Made by a program: the position numbers and the translations under genes | In this document: positions 24,088 to 33,477 of the stretch, piece after piece | Layout of the letters: each line of letters opens with the position of its first letter | How positions within the stretch are numbered: the stretch's first letter is position 1 | Notes under the pieces: generated by a model | Database searches by the model: none | What the model was told of the DNA's origin: nothing | The model's input: the letters and a program-made list of their open reading frames with translations, nothing else | DNA from: Chryseobacterium gleum | Lineage (GTDB): Bacteria; Bacteroidota; Bacteroidia; Flavobacteriales; Weeksellaceae | Assembly (NCBI RefSeq): GCF_900636535.1 | Contig: NZ_LR134289.1 | Span: forward strand, 3,985,001 to 4,049,000 | Reading direction: 5' to 3' | DNA: 64,000 bases

Positions 24088-25203
24088 ATGAACAAAAATT
24101 TGACCAAGTACATTGCTGCGGCTTACCTTTCTTCCCTCATTATTTTTACAGGTTGTGCCGGTAAAGCAGAAAATAAGGAAGCCGAAAAAGGATATTGCAT
24201 CAGCAAAGAGCTAAAGAAAGATATTAAACTGGCTAAGGCAGAAATGCTTCCCATAGAAGAAAGTATAACCCTTACCGGAGAAGTGGAAAGTAATTCTGAT
24301 AAGACAGTGCCTTTTGTAAGCCTTGTGGACGGAGTGGTGATGGATACTTATTTTTCCCTTGGTGATTACGTGAAAAAGGGACAGACGCTGGCCAGTGTAA
24401 AAAGTACAGCTGTGAATGAAATGCAGGATGATACCCAGACTTTGCAGGCTCAGCTGGCAGTGGCAAAAAGAAAGCTGTCTTCTGTAGAAGCGATGTATAA
24501 AGATGATATTGCTTCTCAGAAAGATTTACAGGAAGCACGTTCGGAAGTTGCCATACTCCAATCTAATATTTCCAAGACACAGAAAAATATGCAGCTGTAT
24601 TCAGCGGGAGGGAATACCATTCAGATCAAAGCCCCGGCTGACGGATATGTTATTTCAAAGAATATCTCCAAAGGAATGCCTGTTACCACGGGTGGAGATC
24701 AGCTTTTTACCATTTCAAACCTGGATAAGGTATGGGTAATGGCGAATGTCTATGCTACCAACATGAGGCATGTTTATGTAAATCAACCTGTAGTAGTAAA
24801 AACGCTTGCATATCCTGATGACAGTTTCTCCGGAAAGATTGATAATATTTCCCAGGTTTTCAATGAAAATGAAAGAGTACTCAAAGCGAAAATCATTATG
24901 GACAATAATGGAATGAAGCTGAGACCGGGGATGTCTGCAGATGTTGTACTGCCAATTAATTCACAAAACAAAAGCGCTCTGGCTATTCCTGCAAAGGCCC
25001 TGATCTTTGATAACAACCAAAGTTATGTAGTGGTTTACAAAAAAGACTGTGAGTTGGAAATAAGACCTGTTACCGAGATTGCTTCCAACAGCCGGTATAT
25101 TTATGTAGAAGGAAATTTAAAACCAGGTGAAAATGTCATTGCTTCCAATGGGCTGCTGATCTATGAAAACCTGAAAAATCAATTAAACAATTCCAAGAAG
25201 TAA
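24088..25203 (+). CDS. RND efflux periplasmic adaptor (CzcB-like membrane fusion lipoprotein)
   Basis: The 371-residue adaptor links the RND pump to the outer-membrane channel. A lipoprotein signal with FTGC anchors it to the inner membrane. The order is beta-barrel entry (EESITLTGEVES), lipoyl half-motif (GDYVKKGQTLASV), an alpha-hairpin (about 110-165), the second lipoyl half (IKAPADGYVISKNISKGMPV), the barrel domain (VWVMANVYAT) and the membrane-proximal domain. No His-rich metal-binding N-terminus as in some CzcB proteins is present. The stop overlaps the pump start by one base (TAATG). Confidence 0.9.
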   Translation: MNKNLTKYIAAAYLSSLIIFTGCAGKAENKEAEKGYCISKELKKDIKLAKAEMLPIEESITLTGEVESNSDKTVPFVSLVDGVVMDTYFSLGDYVKKGQTLASVKSTAVNEMQDDTQTLQAQLAVAKRKLSSVEAMYKDDIASQKDLQEARSEVAILQSNISKTQKNMQLYSAGGNTIQIKAPADGYVISKNISKGMPVTTGGDQLFTISNLDKVWVMANVYATNMRHVYVNQPVVVKTLAYPDDSFSGKIDNISQVFNENERVLKAKIIMDNNGMKLRPGMSADVVLPINSQNKSALAIPAKALIFDNNQSYVVVYKKDCELEIRPVTEIASNSRYIYVEGNLKPGENVIASNGLLIYENLKNQLNNSKK

Positions 25204-28200
25204 TGCGAAAATTTGTACAGAATATAGTTTCCTTCTCTTTAAAAAACTCATTGATCGTTCTTTTGGGAACTTTTCTATTGCTGGCCGGAGGAATCTATTC
25301 CTATATACATACTCCCATTGAAGCATTTCCGGATGTTACCAATACGAGGGTAAGAGTCATTACCCAGTGGCCGGGAAGAAGTGCGGAAGAAATAGAAAAA
25401 TTTGTCACCTTACCCATTTCAAAGGAAATGAATGCCATCCCGAACAAAACTTCGGTGCGTTCTATTTCCTTGTTTGGATTATCTGTGGTCACTGTGATTT
25501 TTGATGATCATGTCAATGATTTCTATGCACAGCAATATGCTTCCAATAAACTCGGGAATGTAGAGCTTCCTGCCGGAGCAGACTACAGTATTGAGCCTCC
25601 TTCCGGTGCAACCGGTGAAATTTACCGGTATATCATTAAAAGTATGCTTCCTATCAAAGAAGTTACCTCTATTCAGGATTGGGTGGTAGAAAGAGAATTG
25701 CTTGCCGTTCCTGGTGTTGCAGATGTTGTAAGTTTTGGTGGTGAAGAAAAAATATATGAAATAAAAATTAATCCTACAGAATTACATAATTATGACCTTT
25801 CCCCCCTGGATGTGTATGAAGCGGTTTCGAAGAGTAATATCAATGTAGGTGGAGATGTAGTGGCAAAAGGTGATCAGGCTTATGTAGTGCGGGGGATCGG
25901 TCTTTTGGAGAAAAAAGAAGATATTGAGAATATTCAGATTGAAGTAAAAGGTTCTACGCCTATTCTGGTGAAACATGTTGCCGAAGTAAAAGTTTCTGCA
26001 AAGCCTAGATTGGGACAGGTAGGGTATAACAAAGAAAATGATGTTGTAGAAGGAATTGTAATCATGCTTCGTGGAGAAAACCCGAGTGAAGTGATTGCAA
26101 GGCTGAAAGACAGAATTGAACAACTGAACGGGGGAGAACTTCCCGGTGACGTACAGATTGTTCCGATCATTGACCGTACAGAGCTTGTGAATACAACGGT
26201 TCATACCGTTTCCAAAAACCTTATTGAGGGAGTTATTCTGGTTTCCATCATTGTATTTATTTTCCTTTACAACTGGAGAACAACTTTCATTGTAGCATCA
26301 GTAATTCCGTTAGCTTTTCTGTTTGCTATTATTATGTTGAAAATTCAGGGATTGCCTGCCAACCTGATTTCCATGGGAGCACTGGATTTCGGATTACTTC
26401 TGGAAGGAACGCTTGTCATTGTAGAACACGTCTTTGTCGCCCTCGAGCACAAAGCGAAAAAGATAGGACTGCGGAGATTCAACAAAATTTCGAAGCTGGG
26501 AATTATCAAGAAAAGCGCTGGAAGTGTCGCAAGTTATATTTTCTTTGCCCTGCTGATCCTTATCGTTGCCCTGATGCCGATTTTCTCTTTCCAGAAGGTT
26601 GAAGGAAAAATGTTCTCTCCATTGGCATTTACATTGGGATATGCATTGTTAGGATCTTTGATCTTAAGTTTGACCTATGTTCCGGCAATGTGTAAACTGC
26701 TCCTGACTAAGAATATTGAAGAGAAAGAAAATTTTATTTCCAGATTTTTCAGAGTTAATATTTACAAGATTTACGAATTCAGTGACCGTCATAAAAAAGG
26801 CTTCATTATTGGTTTCGTTGCTTTGCTCGCAGTATGTGGATGGAGATTCTCCAATTACGGATCTGAATTTTTACCTAAACTAAACGAAGGTGCAATCTAC
26901 GTAAGAGCTACCCTTCCAAACAGTGTTAATCTCGATGAGTCTGTACGATTGACGAAGGAGATGAAAGAGATTCTCATGAAGTATGATGAAGTAAAATTTG
27001 TTATGACCCAGACTGGCCGCCCGAATGATGGGACAGATCCTACAGGTTTTTTTAATATCGAATTTAATATTCAGCTGAAACCTGAAAATGAGTGGAAGAA
27101 AAAAATATCCAAAGAAGAACTTCTTGAAGAAATGAGAGTTTCTCTTGAGAAATATCCGGGTATTAATTTTGGATTCAGTCAGCCGATACAGGATAATGTG
27201 GAAGAATATGTAGCAGGGGTGAAAGCTCCGCTGGTTATTAAAATTTTTGGAAATGATCTTTTCGAGCTTGAAAACTATGCCAATAAAGTAGCCAATTCCA
27301 TCAGAACCGTTCCGGGAATATCAGATGTAAACGTTTTCAAAAATATCGGACTTCCGGAATTAAGAATACAGCTTCATGATTCCAAAATGGCCAAATATGG
27401 AGTCTCTACAGCAGATGCACAGGCCGTAATCGAAATGACAATCGGAGGGCAGGCTGCTACGAAATTTTATGAAGAGGAAAGAATGTTTGATGTCATGCTC
27501 AGGTTTGAAAAACAATACCGGGACACCCCTGAAAAAATGGGGAATATTCTTATCCCGACTCAGGATAACAAAAAAGTTCCACTGAAGGAAATCGCCACTA
27601 TTGATTATCATACCGGACCGTCATTTATTTACCGGGAAGGAAACAGCAGATATATCGGAGTTGGATTTAATATTGAAGGGCGTGATCTCGGAAGTACCAT
27701 CAAAGAAGCAAAAGAAAAAGTAGAGAAAGAAGTGAAGCTTCCGAAAAATCATAAAATGACCTGGGCCGGAGAATTTGAAAGCAAAGAAAGAGCAGCAAAA
27801 CAGCTGGCTATGGTAGTACCGATTTCTTTAGTTCTTATTCTGATGCTGTTGTATTTCAACTTCGGGAATATTAAAGATACCTTGATTTCTTCCATTACAT
27901 TGGCATTTGCGTTTATCGGAGGGTTTTTATCCCTTTGGTTTACGGGAACCATCTTCGGAATTTCAGCAGGAATCGGGTTTATTATCCTTTTCGGAGTGGC
28001 AACAATAGATGGTATTGTCCTGATTGGAGTGATGAAAGAAAATCTCCAAAACAGACTTTCTCTCAAAGAATCCATTGCAGAAGGAGTGAAGAGTAGAATC
28101 CGCCCTGTGGTGATGATTGCTTTGATGGGTTCTATGGGACTTCTCCCTGCAGCGATGTCGAATGGGATGGGCTCGGAAATTCAGAAGCCTTTGGCCATCA

Positions 28201-28301
28201 TGATTGTAGGAGGATTGATCATCTGTATGCTGCTTTCATTTACAATACTACCTATTATTTTTCATTATGCCTATCGCAAAAAGCATAAGGAAACAATATA
28301 G
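25203..28301 (+). CDS. CzcA-like heavy-metal RND efflux pump
   Basis: The 1032-residue, 12-helix proton/cation antiporter exports divalent metal from the periplasm or cytoplasm. N-terminal helix, large periplasmic domains (about 35-335 and 560-860) and two helix bundles match the HME-RND family. The TM4 motif reads DFGLLLEGTLVIVEH: Asp395 and Glu408 align with CzcA Asp402 and Glu415, but the middle acid is Glu401 instead of Asp. This is closer to Zn/Co/Cd-type (CzcA) than to Cu/Ag-type (CusA) pumps. It is the last gene of the operon and is followed by a strong terminator. Confidence 0.92.
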   Translation: MRKFVQNIVSFSLKNSLIVLLGTFLLLAGGIYSYIHTPIEAFPDVTNTRVRVITQWPGRSAEEIEKFVTLPISKEMNAIPNKTSVRSISLFGLSVVTVIFDDHVNDFYAQQYASNKLGNVELPAGADYSIEPPSGATGEIYRYIIKSMLPIKEVTSIQDWVVERELLAVPGVADVVSFGGEEKIYEIKINPTELHNYDLSPLDVYEAVSKSNINVGGDVVAKGDQAYVVRGIGLLEKKEDIENIQIEVKGSTPILVKHVAEVKVSAKPRLGQVGYNKENDVVEGIVIMLRGENPSEVIARLKDRIEQLNGGELPGDVQIVPIIDRTELVNTTVHTVSKNLIEGVILVSIIVFIFLYNWRTTFIVASVIPLAFLFAIIMLKIQGLPANLISMGALDFGLLLEGTLVIVEHVFVALEHKAKKIGLRRFNKISKLGIIKKSAGSVASYIFFALLILIVALMPIFSFQKVEGKMFSPLAFTLGYALLGSLILSLTYVPAMCKLLLTKNIEEKENFISRFFRVNIYKIYEFSDRHKKGFIIGFVALLAVCGWRFSNYGSEFLPKLNEGAIYVRATLPNSVNLDESVRLTKEMKEILMKYDEVKFVMTQTGRPNDGTDPTGFFNIEFNIQLKPENEWKKKISKEELLEEMRVSLEKYPGINFGFSQPIQDNVEEYVAGVKAPLVIKIFGNDLFELENYANKVANSIRTVPGISDVNVFKNIGLPELRIQLHDSKMAKYGVSTADAQAVIEMTIGGQAATKFYEEERMFDVMLRFEKQYRDTPEKMGNILIPTQDNKKVPLKEIATIDYHTGPSFIYREGNSRYIGVGFNIEGRDLGSTIKEAKEKVEKEVKLPKNHKMTWAGEFESKERAAKQLAMVVPISLVLILMLLYFNFGNIKDTLISSITLAFAFIGGFLSLWFTGTIFGISAGIGFIILFGVATIDGIVLIGVMKENLQNRLSLKESIAEGVKSRIRPVVMIALMGSMGLLPAAMSNGMGSEIQKPLAIMIVGGLIICMLLSFTILPIIFHYAYRKKHKETI

Positions 28302-28393: not shown

Positions 28394-28765
28394 TTATTTT
28401 TTTAGTAAGTTTTCTATAAGTTTGCTTTGAGCTTCCAGAAGCTTTGTAATCTGTTCCTGATTTTTTATGATACTTTGTAATAATTCAGGTGACTGAATAT
28501 TAACAGTTGAGTCTTTAGGATAGACTATGTTAGAATTTTCAAAAGTATTATTTGAAATAATAACATTCCCTTCACTTTCAAATAAATCCTGTATTTCGAT
28601 CTCAAAAACCTCAGCAATTTTTCCCAATTTATCCAAAGAAGGCTTTCCCTGATCTGATTCCCATTTATTATAAGCAGGTTGGGAAATATCTAATTTATAG
28701 GCTACTTCAGCCTGAGACCAATTATTACGTTGTCTTAATTGCTTCAATTTGGTTCCTAAACTCAT
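28394..28765 (-). CDS. XRE-family HTH regulator
   Basis: The 123-residue DNA-binding protein has a Cro/C1-type HTH (about 4-60: LKQLRQRNNWSQAEVAYKLD, then ISQPAYNKWESDQGKPSLDKL) and a C-terminal helix (about 88-122) rich in Leu, Gln and Lys that could dimerise. It is transcribed away from a three-gene cassette that starts at 28930. The 164-bp region between them has promoters in both directions and an 11-bp direct repeat, so it probably controls itself and the cassette. Confidence 0.88.
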   Translation of the reverse strand: MSLGTKLKQLRQRNNWSQAEVAYKLDISQPAYNKWESDQGKPSLDKLGKIAEVFEIEIQDLFESEGNVIISNNTFENSNIVYPKDSTVNIQSPELLQSIIKNQEQITKLLEAQSKLIENLLKK

Positions 28766-28778
28766 TGGATGTTTTTTA

Positions 28779-28786
28779 CAAATATA
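28779..28786 (-). promoter_or_regulatory. -7 box of the XRE regulator gene
   Basis: TATATTTG on the minus strand (28786-28779) matches TAnnTTTG and lies 13 bp upstream of the regulator's ATG. Confidence 0.5.
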
Positions 28787-28801
28787 AAATATTTTAGAAT
28801 G

Positions 28802-28834
28802 ATAACTATAGGCTATTAAATTTATAACTGTAGG
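28802..28834. promoter_or_regulatory. Candidate operator: two 11-bp direct repeats
   Basis: ATAACTATAGG (28802-28812) and ATAACTGTAGG (28824-28834) differ at one base and start 22 bp apart, about two helical turns. They lie between the divergent promoters of the XRE gene and of the lipoprotein cassette, next to the -33 element of the latter, as expected for an operator of the XRE protein. Confidence 0.5.
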
Positions 28835-28837
28835 TTG

Positions 28838-28868
28838 TTGTGCAGTTTGAGATTAAATTTTAGTTTTG
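28838..28868 (+). promoter_or_regulatory. Promoter of the JAMM-lipoprotein cassette
   Basis: TTG at 28838-28840 and TAGTTTTG at 28861-28868 are 20 bp apart, a full consensus match. The leader to the ATG at 28930 is about 55 bases. Confidence 0.6.
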
Positions 28869-28929
28869 TGATAGTTCTCGTCGAAGTGAATAGATAAAAT
28901 ATTATATTTAACAATTAAAACTCAAATGA

Positions 28930-30534
28930 ATGAAAAAAAGATTTATTATGGTGCTGCTATTGCTGGCAGTCTTCGGTTTTACTTTACAGTCTTGTAGAAA
29001 TGACCTTCTTCCTGGTCATGATGAAACTTATGACAACAGCAATCAGTTTAAACTTTACTCAAAAATAATTACGCTGAATGAAAGCAAGCATAAATCCAAA
29101 CTGATTTCTGAACTGCAAAAGGTAGAAATTGATTTAAAGAAAACCAAACAATTTTTTGTGGGAAAAACTATTGATTATGATAATTTTATAATAGATACTG
29201 ATCATATTGTCTTTATGGAAAACGGTTCTCATTATCATACATATACTTTCCGGGTTATAAGAAATACTGAAGAGGGAAATGCTTCTGTAGAAAATTTGGT
29301 TTTTACTCCTTTATCAGATGGGACTTATAGAAAATTATTAATTACCTATAATTTTACTCCTCAGGAAAAGGAAATTCTAATGAACGGAGGATATGTTAAT
29401 ACTAAAGGAAAATCTACTGTCACAGAATTGGGGGTAGGCATATTGCCACAAACATTGGGTAAAGGGTCTACACAAAGCTGCGGGTACGTAACAGCGGAAG
29501 CTTATACTTGGTGTAGTGAAGGGGTGCATCACAATGGCGAAACTGATTGTACTGCAGATGAAAAATCACACATAATAACAGTTTTATTATATGTTTGTAC
29601 CAGCGTAGATGATGGAAGCGGAAGTGGTGGAGGTGGAAGTAGTACCGGAGATGGAGGTGGTGGAGATGGTCCGCCGATTACCTGGGTGTGTCCTGATCCC
29701 AAAGTTTTAACAGGACCTCAACAACCAGGCTCAGATTTAGGTGATGAAAGTTGCTATGGGGTGCCTACTGAACCCAATGTAGGGGGAGGCTCTAATAATG
29801 GAGACCCTTGTGCTAAAGCAAGTATTCCTGTAAATATAGTAAATACTTTGTTACATGCGCCAACAATATCTACAGAGCTAAGCGCGCTGGAAAATCATGC
29901 TAAAAATGACCATTATGAATATGGAACTGCCATCATCAGTACGAGTACAACACCAATAGCACAAGATCCTTATTCAAGTAATGATCCTAATGATCCTGGC
30001 CATGTTTCAATCAGTATACCTTCTGTTGGTGATCTTCTTGCCATGGCACATACCCATCCAAGCCATGGGGCATCCCCTCCGTCTGCAAAAGATCTCTATG
30101 TAACGCTCCAATATGCTAAAGAAAGACCAACTTTTCAGGCATCATTTGTTTTTAGTAGTAATGGGACTAAATATGCTTTAGTAGTAACTGACAGAGCAAA
30201 AGCCGAGGCTTTTTTAGTTGCTTATCCTTTTTTAACTAATACAACCAATGAAGGAAGAATATTTAATAAAAATTATGCTGTTGGAAGTGATTTTAACACT
30301 ATCTACAACTATTATATGCAAGGAAGTTTACCATCGTATTCGGGAAGCAGCCAAAATGATGGAATGGAATCAGCGTATGCGCAAATTTTGGAAAAATATG
30401 ATGCAGGTATCAGTTTTGCAAAAACAGATGCTAATGGAAATTTGAAACCACTTAGATCAGTATCTTTTCAATATGAAATCCCAGCATCAGGTGGTAAAAA
30501 AATAACAGGCTATAGAGCAGAACCTTGTCCTTAA
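28930..30534 (+). CDS. Lipoprotein with C-terminal JAMM/MPN-like motif
   Basis: The 534-residue precursor has lipobox LQSC with Cys22. Residues about 35-220 form an unassigned domain with several Cys near its end. A low-complexity Gly/Ser/Asp linker follows (about 227-247), then a Pro/Cys-rich part and a C-terminal domain (about 300-460). Within that domain Glu330 and H374-T-H376-P, with Ser385 and Asp388, reproduce the JAMM pattern HxHP...SxxD used by MPN+ zinc isopeptidases and by bacterial Prok-JAB proteins. It may therefore be a surface or periplasmic metallopeptidase, although folding as JAMM is inferred from the motif only. It heads a three-gene cassette opposite an XRE gene. Function unknown. 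Confidence 0.75.
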   Translation: MKKRFIMVLLLLAVFGFTLQSCRNDLLPGHDETYDNSNQFKLYSKIITLNESKHKSKLISELQKVEIDLKKTKQFFVGKTIDYDNFIIDTDHIVFMENGSHYHTYTFRVIRNTEEGNASVENLVFTPLSDGTYRKLLITYNFTPQEKEILMNGGYVNTKGKSTVTELGVGILPQTLGKGSTQSCGYVTAEAYTWCSEGVHHNGETDCTADEKSHIITVLLYVCTSVDDGSGSGGGGSSTGDGGGGDGPPITWVCPDPKVLTGPQQPGSDLGDESCYGVPTEPNVGGGSNNGDPCAKASIPVNIVNTLLHAPTISTELSALENHAKNDHYEYGTAIISTSTTPIAQDPYSSNDPNDPGHVSISIPSVGDLLAMAHTHPSHGASPPSAKDLYVTLQYAKERPTFQASFVFSSNGTKYALVVTDRAKAEAFLVAYPFLTNTTNEGRIFNKNYAVGSDFNTIYNYYMQGSLPSYSGSSQNDGMESAYAQILEKYDAGISFAKTDANGNLKPLRSVSFQYEIPASGGKKITGYRAEPCP

Positions 30535-30548
30535 CTAAAAATACTATT

Positions 30549-31046
30549 ATGAAAACAAATATTTTACTTACATTTTTTATTACTGTAATTATTTTTACAC
30601 ATTATAAATCACAAACAAGCCAACCTATAAACATAACAGATTATCCCAATTTTTATAATCAGACTGTTTCTAAATTAAATAATCTTATGCCAAATAAGAC
30701 TAACTATTATAATCAGCCGCTCTCAGTTTTCCTCCAGGCATTAGATCAAAATAATATTGCTATAAAAGCTTATGATCCGGGACCATTCGATAATAATTTT
30801 TTAACACTTATGTTTATTAATGATGCAGAAAGCTCTTCAGTTATTTATCAAAATGGATATGTTCAACCTCATATAGCAATAACATTTCAGCAACCTTTTG
30901 ATTTTCAGCAAGCAACCACAATTTTAAATCAATATCATTGGTTTTGGAATTCTACAGTAGAAAATTTCTATAAAAATTTAGTAATCAAAAAGATAGAGTT
31001 TTGGTATGTAAGGGGATTAACAAATAAAGCTCAAGCTCCAAAGTGA
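30549..31046 (+). CDS. Small secreted protein of the cassette
   Basis: The product has 165 residues from the Met that begins MKTNILLTFFITVIIF, a signal peptide cleaved near HYKSQ. A reading eight codons longer overlaps the upstream gene and spoils the signal. The mature part is rich in Asn, Gln, Tyr, Phe and Trp with no Cys, and no family is recognised. The region is much more AT-rich than the housekeeping genes nearby. Its stop overlaps the next start (TGATG), so production of the two is coupled. Confidence 0.7.
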   Translation: MKTNILLTFFITVIIFTHYKSQTSQPINITDYPNFYNQTVSKLNNLMPNKTNYYNQPLSVFLQALDQNNIAIKAYDPGPFDNNFLTLMFINDAESSSVIYQNGYVQPHIAITFQQPFDFQQATTILNQYHWFWNSTVENFYKNLVIKKIEFWYVRGLTNKAQAPK

Positions 31047-31564
31047 TGAAATTTGTTTTTTCTTTTTTTTTAATGCTTTATTTTCTTAGTGCTTGTACTG
31101 TGAAACCAAAATATATGGTTTATCTTTCAACAGGAATTGAAAATGTAAAACTTTTCCCTGCTAATAAAATAGATTCTGCCAGAATAAATATTATAAATAT
31201 AAATACAAAAGGATCTTTAGAAAAATGTTATAGAGAAAAGAATGTAGTATGTATAAATGATTTAGGTGCAATGATTTTGAATGCAGAATTTCCAAAAGGT
31301 ATAAGTAACTTTAGAAATGTTTTATTTGAAAAATTTGAGCTTCCCAAAAATGTAAGAGAAGGAGAAAATAGGATTCGTATAATTCTAGGTATTAATGATA
31401 ATTTAGAAAAGATAGAGATTCTAAAGTATACTGATAAAAATACAAAAAAAGCTCTTGAAGAAGTTTTTAAAGTAAAAGAACTCAATACATGGAAATCAGC
31501 AAAGATGTATGGTATTCCGGTAAAGGAACAGTTTGAAATAAGTATTTTTATAGAAAATAAATAA
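31046..31564 (+). CDS. Small lipoprotein with TonB C-terminal-like domain
   Basis: The 172-residue precursor has lipobox LSAC with Cys17. The last 85 residues (starting near FELPKNVREGENRIRII, then LEKIEILKYTDKN, ALEEVF, LNTWKSAKMYGIPVKEQFEISIFIE) follow the pattern of the TonB_C fold: a strand with regulatory-style hydrophobics, an alpha-helix, and a W-x-P-type closing strand. Unlike TonB it has no transmembrane anchor or Pro-rich spacer, so energy transduction is unlikely. It overlaps the preceding stop by one base and ends the cassette. Confidence 0.7.
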   Translation: MKFVFSFFLMLYFLSACTVKPKYMVYLSTGIENVKLFPANKIDSARINIININTKGSLEKCYREKNVVCINDLGAMILNAEFPKGISNFRNVLFEKFELPKNVREGENRIRIILGINDNLEKIEILKYTDKNTKKALEEVFKVKELNTWKSAKMYGIPVKEQFEISIFIENK

Positions 31565-31699: not shown

Positions 31700-31936
31700 T
31701 TATGGGGTGATAATGATCGGATCAGGAAATGGTTCTAGAATCAATGGCTTGCACATGGCTGCCGGCTGACAGGTTCCCCCAATGCATATAAAATTAGTCA
31801 TTGTGGTAGTTCCGTCAGGACATCTGATCATCGCTTCACCATGACATCCTCCGGGGCATTGTGCCGGGTACAGTGTCCCTCCGAATACATCTTTCAGTTC
31901 TGTTCTCGAGAGTTTTGTAAAATTCTTTTTTTTCAT
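31700..31936 (-). CDS. Bacteriocin-like peptide precursor with double-glycine leader
   Basis: The 78-residue peptide starts with a basic leader (KKKNFTKLSRTELKDVFGG) that fits double-glycine leaders removed by C39-peptidase transporters, cutting after Gly20. The predicted 58-residue core contains six Cys (27, 31, 39, 51, 56, 62), two of them in CPGGC, and a Pro/Ile-rich tail ending PIIITP. Flavobacterial genomes hold many such orphan leader peptides. No transporter, peptidase or immunity gene lies beside it here, so export would depend on a system encoded elsewhere. Antibacterial activity is not established. Confidence 0.75.
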   Translation of the reverse strand: MKKKNFTKLSRTELKDVFGGTLYPAQCPGGCHGEAMIRCPDGTTTMTNFICIGGTCQPAAMCKPLILEPFPDPIIITP

Positions 31937-32105: not shown

Positions 32106-33035
32106 TCAGAATCCACTTTTTTCATAAATTTCTCGGGGTGATTTTGTAAAAACATCTTTCCACGAATCTTTGCCATTCTTTAGCACATATTGCTCAATAA
32201 TTTTGTAGCCAATATAATACCCTATTGCACCGGGAAGTTTTTCATTAAGTTTTGTCTCTCTGCTCCTGAAAACATCTATAATGTTATTGTCCTCTGAAAA
32301 TTTATTTTTTTCAAAAAAAGATTTAATTAATTCTATATTTTTTTCGCATAACTTTAATTCTGAATCTGTGTAACCAAGATGTTGGGCAAGAGTATATTTT
32401 TTATTCCAGTATTTTTGATTGACCCAAACGGCAAACCCTTCTCCGATGATTGGTTCCAGTGCTGTCTTGTCATTGTGTTGGTTTGTTTCCATCATAATTT
32501 GATGGGTAATTTCATGAGGTAGAATTTGCTCAATGCTTTCTGTGGACTTATTGTTTTCATGAGATAAGTCAATCACCATCGCGTATCTGCCTAATCCCCC
32601 TAAATCAGTCCATGCAGGGCCGAATAGTATGTACCAGTCACCTTTAGTATCATAGCCGGTCAGAGCTTTCATGCCTTTAGAAAACTTTTGAAGAGATCTG
32701 GTGATTTGTTTTCCGTTCACATCTTTGCTTTTTTCAATCCATTTATCTGTTTGAGACTGATTGTCATTGAGCCACTGTACAACTTTAGCAGAATTTCCAA
32801 GATATCCATTCCATAGCTTTTGATAGGGAGTATAAATAGAATCTGCATATATCCTATTTCTCTGGATAGAATCCGAATTTCTATACTTCTTTAATATTCT
32901 GATTTGTACTGTAGAAACATCAATTGTGTTGATACTTTTTTGCGCAGGAAGACTCTGGAGGAAAATGATAAGGAAGATTGAAAGATATTTTTTCACATTC
33001 AATGTTTTAAGGTTTTTGTTTTGCAATTTCATCAT
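32106..33035 (-). CDS. Secreted HExxH zinc metallopeptidase-like protein
   Basis: This 309-residue protein has a signal peptide ending SLPAQ (about residue 32). The catalytic motif HEITH gives His174, Glu175 and His178, and GEGFAVW 21 residues later supplies Glu199 as a plausible third zinc ligand, so it is gluzincin-like. The surrounding sequence (DWYILFGPAWTDLGGLG before, and a helical C-terminal half) does not identify a named family to me. The ATG pair at 33035/33032 lies within the 3' end of the YCII gene, so the two overlap by 29 bases and share a transcript. Confidence 0.75.
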   Translation of the reverse strand: MMKLQNKNLKTLNVKKYLSIFLIIFLQSLPAQKSINTIDVSTVQIRILKKYRNSDSIQRNRIYADSIYTPYQKLWNGYLGNSAKVVQWLNDNQSQTDKWIEKSKDVNGKQITRSLQKFSKGMKALTGYDTKGDWYILFGPAWTDLGGLGRYAMVIDLSHENNKSTESIEQILPHEITHQIMMETNQHNDKTALEPIIGEGFAVWVNQKYWNKKYTLAQHLGYTDSELKLCEKNIELIKSFFEKNKFSEDNNIIDVFRSRETKLNEKLPGAIGYYIGYKIIEQYVLKNGKDSWKDVFTKSPREIYEKSGF

Positions 33036-33477
33036 GATGCTTAAGGTATAAAGGTAAAGCAGCGGATCCGTACCAAGGAAAAATTTCATAGCTGAAAATG
33101 CCGGCCTGAACTGCAGGATCTGTTTTTACCCACTGTTCAGCTTCTTCCTTAGATTTGGTGTTGAAGATAAACATACCTCGGTAGTTCTCTTTATTTTTTT
33201 CAAGAAAAGGTCCGGCAACAACAATTTTGCCTTCATTGGCCAGCTTACCGATATTGTTCATGTGTCCTTTCATAAGTTCACTCATTTGAGCTTTATCCTC
33301 AATATGGGTAGTGCCTGTTGTCAGCATGACGATAGTATATGGTTTCATGCCGTATTTATCTGCTCCTAAAGATGTTGCCAGTTCCTGATTATATTTAGTT
33401 TTTTCTGGTTTCTTTTCCTGAGCAAAAGACAATACTGATATGAGAAGGCATGTAAGTAGTAACGTTTTTGATTTCAT
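33007..33477 (-). CDS. YCII-domain protein with signal peptide
   Basis: The 156-residue protein has a signal peptide ending SFAQ (about residue 20). The mature part fits the YCII ferredoxin-like fold: MLTTGTTH, the helix around HMNNIGKLANEGKIVVAGPF, and EEAEQWVKTDPAVQAGIFSYEIFPW. Most YCII proteins are cytoplasmic, so the exported form is unusual but known in Bacteroidota. It precedes and overlaps the metallopeptidase gene. Confidence 0.82.
   Translation of the reverse strand: MKSKTLLLTCLLISVLSFAQEKKPEKTKYNQELATSLGADKYGMKPYTIVMLTTGTTHIEDKAQMSELMKGHMNNIGKLANEGKIVVAGPFLEKNKENYRGMFIFNTKSKEEAEQWVKTDPAVQAGIFSYEIFPWYGSAALPLYLKHHDEIAKQKP

Follow-up and report, generated by a model that had tools for sequence, protein, structure and literature searches.

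Which role is played in Chryseobacterium gleum by a small cassette of exported-looking proteins that faces an XRE-type regulator is the question raised by the locus described here. The window, i.e., the whole stretch of DNA analysed, comprises 64,000 nucleotides, and the features of the locus are listed in Table 1. The cassette looks like one member of a large, swappable family of Chryseobacterium weapons, and the most probable reading (about 0.78) is that gene A encodes a toxin acting outside the cytoplasm, with gene B as its cognate immunity gene. The cassette was confirmed as a whole: the coordinates of the four ORFs hold, the XRE gene and gene A are separated by 164 bp as claimed, and the stop codon of gene B overlaps the start of gene C. 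An earlier note on this DNA had described three AT-rich genes, which is right for genes B and C (27.3 and 24.5% G+C, respectively) but not for gene A (37.3%, versus 36.7% in the window). It had also described all three products as exported; the lipoboxes of gene A (SC22R) and gene C (SAC17) are clear, gene B has a signal-peptide-like N-terminus lacking the Cys present in several homologues, and export is in each case a prediction from the sequence only.

Table 1. Features of the cassette, in window positions.
Feature	Position	Strand	Basis or remark
XRE/Cro-CI type regulator, 123 aa	28394..28765	-	divergent to cassette; Pfam HTH_3 E 5.6e-16
Candidate operator, two 14-bp direct repeats	28803..28838	.	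repeat matching
Gene A, lipoprotein toxin candidate, 534 aa	28930..30534	+	
Gene A signal peptide and lipobox up to Cys22	28930..28995	+	S21, C22, R23 conservation
Gene A constant N-terminal domain, residues 22 to ~225	28993..29604	+	HMM matches
Gene A Gly-rich linker and joint, residues 226 to ~292	29605..29805	+	sequence, pLDDT
Gene A JAMM/MPN toxin domain (predicted), residues 293-534	29806..30531	+	flanked by invariant Cys294, Cys533
Gene A Glu330, JAMM Glu	29917..29919	+	59/59 JAMM-type relatives
Gene A JAMM signature His374-x-His376 ... Ser385-x-x-Asp388	30049..30093	+	59, 58, 53 (others 3 T, 2 A, 1 Q) and 59 of 59 JAMM-type relatives
Gene B (165 aa, predicted to be exported), putative immunity partner of gene A	30549..31046	+	
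Gene C (172 aa), lipoprotein with a predicted accessory or further immunity role	31046..31564	+	start ATG 31046, or GTG 31043; end 31564

Among 50 homologues of gene A, the lipobox residues S21, C22 and R23, the cysteines Cys184, Cys195 and Cys207 and the JAMM-pattern residues E330, H374, H376, S385 and D388 are each at least 90% conserved. The last five sit where the earlier note had placed them, and their conservation indicates that the pattern is not due to chance; by sequence comparison, gene A has the JAMM/MPN+ ligand set of Glu, HxH, S and D. The CTD (C-terminal domain) of gene A is predicted to adopt a JAMM/MPN fold, the absence of which had been named as counter-evidence, and its top structural matches are deubiquitinases and homologues thereof. 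The domain may act as a zinc hydrolase. In the same predicted structure, pLDDT falls below 50 at residues 227-251 and 287-290 of the linker. A lipobox-like motif was found in 71 of 80 relatives of gene A, with an acid (D/E) at position +4 behind it in 65 of the 71 and at +5 in 17. Published surface-export signals of Bacteroidetes lipoproteins (LES; K-(D/E)2, SDDFE) have at least two acids close behind the lipidated Cys, which the +4 acid of the gene A relatives does not clearly match.

The constant N-terminal domain of gene A was matched by HMM in 90 ORFs (81 loci examined), in which it is fused to differing CTDs. These were clustered from the last 175 residues, since clustering that included the linker had merged everything. 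Eight tail classes were found on this single N-terminal family, three named toxin domains occur among the tails, and four pairs of proteins share approximately 90% or more N-terminal identity yet belong to different tail classes. Sister toxins on the same N-terminus carry the AHH nuclease, the Tae4 amidase and other domains, which gives the architecture of polymorphic toxins, a constant N-terminal carrier with variable CTDs. The idea that all relatives would carry unrelated CTDs was rejected: 59 of the 80 are themselves divergent JAMM domains, a share inflated by the choice of loci from matches to gene A or gene B, so that class sizes are not frequencies. Because most of the CTDs were of this kind, the relatives were split by JAMM subclass.

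Gene B, described earlier as a small secreted protein of no known family, indeed gave no match to a Pfam family or a PDB fold. Its family provides the first gene behind the toxin in 24/24 loci of gene A's JAMM subclass. As signal peptides might have joined families artificially, the neighbour clustering was redone on mature parts; the split was unchanged at E<1e-3 (24/24), and at E<1e-5 the family was retained in 19/24 loci, the B-type neighbours of the other 5/24 forming a group of their own, i.e., a looser relative of gene B. Genes A and B are thus regularly found together, contrary to the rare co-occurrence that the earlier note had proposed as a refutation. A CTD-specific gene lies directly downstream of the toxin in 24/24, 34/34 and 5/5 loci, and the distances of the CTD and gene B correlate with r 0.95 (versus 0.02). 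This correlation is one of co-inheritance, also favoured by the direct adjacency of the two, and recombination upstream of the CTD and gene B would yield the same picture without any binding; a CTD-specific immunity gene of the polymorphic-toxin kind is accordingly predicted by co-inheritance only. Putative orphan and multiple immunity genes, another feature of polymorphic toxin systems, are represented by tandem gene B copies in three relative genomes (G003, G009 and G054), by a gene B in G006 with no family toxin within the surrounding 12 kb and by a gene B behind another JAMM toxin in G050. One non-JAMM toxin (L075) is also followed, at a distance of 135 bp, by a DUF6705-type gene, so the DUF6705 family is not wholly JAMM-specific. 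The neighbour families D0 (DUF6705 type), D1 (gene B) and D2 (gene C) resemble each other over just 19-44 columns near the signal peptide, and a common immunity fold is not claimed for them.

For gene C, the family D2 was found among the next genes in 12/24 loci of the subclass. The TonB_C-like character ascribed to it comes down to a weak resemblance in 2/33 family members (best E 0.0048), and the gene C protein of the window gave no TonB_C match in Pfam. In genome G100, gene C is broken beside an open gene B, which suggests that gene C may be dispensable.

It was proposed for Tox-JAB domains that they are nuclease-type toxins that need to enter the cytoplasm (Zhang 2012, PMC3482391; this and the other papers cited by PMC number are represented here by extracts). 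The argument given is that the residues of the ubiquitin tunnel are missing from JAB domains of toxins, which might be RadC-like nucleases (PMC3482391), and sister toxins of the gene A family do carry AHH nuclease domains. However, 48/58 neighbours of JAMM toxins and 0/5 neighbours of AHH nucleases look exported, as called by a crude script that recognises 63/80 toxins, fewer than the 71 with a lipobox-like motif, and the invariant Cys pair around the JAMM domain (59/59) suits an oxidising compartment, which makes a cytoplasm-entering nuclease in gene A unlikely. A surface-held, deubiquitinase-like effector aimed at eukaryotes (amoebae, insects or plants) would agree with the best structural matches of the CTD and with Amoebophilus APD1/APD2, in which lipobox N-termini are combined with variable effector domains (Zhang 2012, PMC3482391). 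Against eukaryotes, however, toxins of the JAMM subclasses would not need to be followed by a partner gene specific to the CTD, and the amidase Tae4 is among the sister CTDs; such a target is judged highly improbable. The surface protease with accessory factors suggested by the earlier note, serving nutrition or processing, could account for a lipoprotein with a JAMM fold and for genes B and C being co-oriented with gene A at short or nil gaps. It is nevertheless hard to credit, because the accessory genes change along with the CTD: the same N-terminus occurs on nucleases, Tae4 amidases and others, and tandem and orphan gene B copies fit immunity better. The note's interpretation was thus borne out in part, its other suggestion, a contact-dependent factor with immunity components, coming close in view of the constant N-terminus, the swapped CTDs and the neighbours that follow the CTD.

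In the preferred reading of a toxin with cognate immunity, gene A would leave the cytoplasm through Sec, receive a lipid at Cys22 and be retained at the outer membrane through its constant N-terminal part, the JAMM domain on the far side of the Gly-rich linker being the toxic part. Contact with a related competitor, or vesicle fusion to it, would bring the protein to the competitor's envelope, where the metallo-hydrolase may cut an essential substrate. The products of gene B, and probably gene C, would neutralise the JAMM domain in the periplasm or outer membrane of the producer, and the divergent XRE protein would bind the repeat pair in the promoter region common to both directions, repressing or timing expression. 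TssC of T6SSiii (PF17541) was found in 145/148 genomes of the genus, including that of the window; PF05943 (0/148) had been misleading, and an argument from lack of a T6SS was dropped. With TssC near-universal, absence cannot argue against T6SS delivery; in G072 and G135 no TssC was found, yet gene A family members are present. A more far-reaching proposal is speculative and rather doubtful: a lipid-anchored JAMM isopeptidase as an antibacterial envelope toxin cutting isopeptide-type bonds (e.g., peptidoglycan cross-links) in the periplasm of the competitor, countered by several exported immunity families of separate origin (gene B, DUF6705), with regulator plus operator, carrier and toxin-immunity pair as three separately exchanged modules.

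In the literature searched, in which coverage of subscription papers is thin, no description of the gene A family was found. The earlier statement that no such system is described thus stands for the exact content; in its logic, however, the cassette follows the polymorphic toxins, among which JAB domains as toxins and one immunity family of lipoproteins are already listed (Zhang 2012, PMC3482391). Tox-JAB-1/Imm65 (PF15659) of Bacteroidetes, like the cassette, combines a JAB/JAMM toxin with a lipoprotein immunity protein, but it sits behind RHS repeats (PMC3482391); no RHS match was found in gene A, and the PF15659 profile gave no match in gene A (cut-off E 1), in 50 homologues (cut-off 0.01) or in the genome of the window. 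Tox-JAB-2/DUF4329 (PF14220) shares E, H[ST]H, S and D with gene A; its profile fails on gene A (no match at E 1) and matches 1/50 homologues (E 0.007). SitA/SitI of Myxococcus also comprises lipoprotein toxins, whose N-termini are escort domains and whose CTDs are swapped, each followed immediately by its cognate immunity gene (PMC5562445, PMC8546572), and a lipoprotein toxin with a downstream immunity gene is likewise predicted here. SitA, set apart by description, has nuclease CTDs with a cytoplasmic target and is moved by TraA/B outer membrane exchange (PMC5562445, PMC8546572), whereas the commonest CTD class found here is JAMM, with exported-looking partners; upstream lies sitB in that system and an XRE gene in many of the present loci. 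By description, APD1/APD2 (Amoebophilus) and MafB-N (Neisseria) are lineage-specific N-terminal anchors with variable C-termini, as here; the APD types have a lipobox like gene A, but their effectors are predicted to act on a eukaryotic host (PMC3482391). The BSAP antibacterial proteins of Bacteroidales, of the same phylum, are pore-forming, unlike gene A (PMC12853789); the phrase "lipoprotein export signal" occurs five times in that paper, and one relative matches over residues 2-72 (E 0.002), the only link seen in this analysis. PMC12483513 and PMC9329510, as far as the extracts go, treat other toxin families. If the preferred reading is true, Flavobacteriia would have a lipoprotein-borne polymorphic toxin system, the "unknown" families DUF6705 and gene B would gain a function, and the targets of JAMM hydrolases in bacteria, where ubiquitin-like conjugation is mostly missing, would become a testable question. 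As AHH, Tae4 and JAMM share one carrier, a single genus could be informative on lipid-anchored delivery of both envelope- and cytoplasm-acting domains.

An XRE-like ORF (phmmer with the XRE protein of the window) lies divergently within 400 bp upstream of 31/80 toxins, an association judged real from these matches. An XRE-controlled toxin-antitoxin or phage-defence unit working inside the producer, to which the divergent gene and its generic helix-turn-helix matches in PADLOC (e.g., HTH_VI 3.6e-12, capH 9.3e-9) might point, is the least credible alternative, given the lipoboxes on A and C, the lack of PADLOC matches for A and B (gene C had one at E 0.02) and the 49/80 toxins with no XRE-like ORF beside them. 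The XRE protein and its G117 counterpart share 49% identity, against 89, 80 and 87% for A, B and C, respectively. Over 28 of the 31 pairs, XRE distance barely tracks that of the N-terminus (r 0.10; reached in 113/2000 permutations) or the CTD (r 0.13; 43/2000). The candidate operator repeats (28803-28816 and 28825-28838) match at 11/14 positions with a spacing of 22, which ties with a spacing of 18 in the window. Across 23 non-redundant of the 31 XRE-toxin intergenic regions (200 shuffles, 18 spacings tried), repeat matching peaks at a spacing of 21 (z 4.0), with z 2.2 at 20 and 2.1 at 22.

Judged from its sequence, the cassette in the window probably encodes a polymorphic toxin on a lipid-anchored carrier in Flavobacteriia. 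The window (G000:C1:3985001-4049000) belongs to a chromosome that resembles Chryseobacterium, going by its closest named relatives. The gene order is RND-like ORF, divergent XRE regulator, putative toxin gene A, predicted immunity gene B, gene C and bacteriocin-like ORF, with a gap of 14 bp between A and B and an overlap of B and C. The JAMM residues of A named in an earlier note (E330, H374/H376, S385 and D388) were found at those positions.

Features of the cassette and its surroundings in the window
Feature	Position	Strand	Description
RND-like ORF	25203-28301		1032 aa, flanking the cassette on the XRE side; presumably RND-type transporter-like
XRE	28394-28765	-	regulator, divergent to A
Repeat 1	28803-28816		candidate operator repeat, intergenic
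Repeat 2	28825-28838		candidate operator repeat, intergenic
A	28930-30534	+	lipoprotein, 534 aa
B	30549-31046	+	predicted exported protein, 165 aa
C	31046-31564	+	lipoprotein, 172 aa
Bacteriocin-like peptide	31700-31936	-	78 aa, adjoining the cassette
Zincin-like ORF	32106-33089	-	327 aa, HEITHQ motif

The 78-aa peptide matched NCBIfam leader_Chryseo at 23.8 bits, barely above the cut-off of 23.5, and its match to TIGR04149 was weak.

With A as query, matches were found in 73 of 148 genomes of the genus; many ended near residue 250 inside longer open frames, and others were confined to the C-terminal half. ORFs were called in the window and in 80 stretches fetched around listed matches to A or B, a sample that is non-random because it was selected by those matches. 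The N-terminal domain was present in 90 ORFs, 80 of which had at least 300 aa (323-744 aa). Clustering of these 80 toxins on their last 175 residues gave eight tail classes, including JAMM (59, the commonest among loci chosen in this way), one class of unknown type (5), AHH (5) and smaller classes. Three non-JAMM classes were named by Pfam searches with representatives: Tae4 amidase (E 1.2e-23 and 4.2e-17), AHH nuclease (2.9e-10 and 3.5e-5) and Tox-MPTase3 (1.5e-8). Different tails were carried on near-identical N-termini, such as L083_8 (JAMM) and L083_3 (Tae4 class), with 96% N-terminal identity. Since a constant N-terminus is combined with swapped tails, some of them named toxin domains, the predicted proteins have the architecture of polymorphic toxins. 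The class of unknown type includes the second family member of the window's own genome (664 aa, G000:C1 about 4748200-4751100, L035 3225-6094), behind which lie first an ORF resembling a membrane protein and then one that looks secreted.

The downstream genes could belong to the carrier or to the tail, and the comparisons point to the tail as their partner. In the 76 toxins having a downstream gene, the tail class and the family of the first gene behind it shared 1.30 bits of mutual information, against a maximum of 0.69 bits in 5000 permutations of the pairing. The gene-B family came first behind all 24 toxins of S0, the JAMM subclass of A, and DUF6705-type proteins were downstream of the remaining JAMM subclasses (34/34); one JAMM toxin had no called downstream gene. 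Clustering without signal peptides gave the identical split at E<1e-3; under the stricter E<1e-5, a separate group was made up of five of the 24 proteins next to S0 toxins. As an exception, a DUF6705-type gene lies 135 bp behind one non-JAMM toxin (L075). The downstream family was common to 119/119 toxin pairs of the same subclass with N-terminal identity <35%, but to just 9/87 pairs of different subclass with identity of at least 70%. In the 19 of 24 S0 loci with both parts long enough, B distances correlated with JAMM-domain distances at r 0.95 (reached by 0 of 2000 permutations) and with N-terminal-domain distances at r 0.02; the values were 0.92 and 0.09 for the 13 S0 loci with an HTHP/HSHP motif as in A, and 0.87 (tail) and 0.04 (N-terminus) for 21 of 24 loci of the DUF6705-linked subclass.

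Several single cases, each of little proof, fit an immunity role of B. Tandem copies are present in three genomes (five next to the toxin in G003, three each in G009 and G054), B relatives occur in G006 (37% identity, L050 5175-5675) with no family toxin within the 12 kb fetched and in G050 behind another JAMM toxin, and in the same gene neighbourhood of G100 (L048 5000-6900) the middle part of the toxin is missing and C is disrupted, with B open and 88% identical. No XRE ORF was called in that G100 neighbourhood. Members of the C family follow closely at 12 of the 24 S0 loci, so it is less certain that C serves as a second immunity protein. In L057, L059, L078, L097, L105 and L110, ORFs of cluster D3 take turns with immunity-type genes; at two of these loci, L057 and L078, the cluster includes fragments of family toxins, and the runs look as if cassettes had been added serially.

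By a crude signal-peptide test, the first downstream protein was export-like in 48/58 JAMM loci and 0/5 AHH loci (other ORFs, 212/717). Immunity proteins are usually located at the toxin's site of action, as Zhang 2012 (PMC3482391) remarks for L,D-peptidase toxins. On this basis JAMM toxins probably act in the envelope and AHH toxins in the cytoplasm; the conserved cysteine pair of the JAMM domain agrees with envelope action. Toxin JAB domains were proposed to be nucleases in the same paper, whereas the JAMM domain here is predicted to be envelope-acting.

Of the 80 toxins, 31 (29 of them JAMM) have a divergent XRE-like ORF no more than 400 bp upstream. Identity to the G117 counterparts was 89% for A, 80% for B, 87% for C and merely 49% for XRE; the G117 XRE is 80-86% identical to those of four other toxins, and XRE distances were nearly independent of the toxin parts (r 0.10 and 0.13). 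In 23 non-redundant of the 31 XRE-toxin intergenics, two similar 14-mers tend to lie two helical turns apart (peak spacing 21 bp, z 4.0, 18 spacings tried). Spacing 18 scores equally in the window, so the repeat pair there remains a candidate operator.

A lipobox-like motif was found in 71/80 toxins; of the other nine, five are without their N-terminal beginning, and in four a Cys at that place escapes the pattern. The following consensus is C-R-(N/T)-(D/E), with a single acid at +4 in 65/71. Because the published surface-export signals (PMC5080379) require at least two acids, surface display is only possible. TssC of T6SSiii (PF17541) was detected in 145/148 genus genomes (own copy G000:C1:5182408-5183682), although PF05943 matched no TssC in the 148. 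TssC went undetected in three genomes, and two of these (G072, G135) nonetheless hold family members; a Sec-lipidated protein would be unlikely T6SS cargo. Delivery by contact or vesicles would be a guess by analogy with SitA (PMC5562445), which the cassette resembles in architecture, judged by sequence.

The toxin-family alignment search gave matches in 76/197 genomes of the taxonomic family and 16/33 genera, many over the JAMM part alone. The gene-B family was found in 8/246 genomes of the order, five in Chryseobacterium and three marginal (3e-4 to 8e-4) outside, and is strong solely in Chryseobacterium. The test for Tox-JAB-1 membership did not place the cassette in that group, and a PF15659 (Toxin-JAB1) search of the window's own genome gave no match. 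PF15659 matches occur in 36/98 genus genomes, and ORFs roughly 1150-3400 aa long contain some of them.
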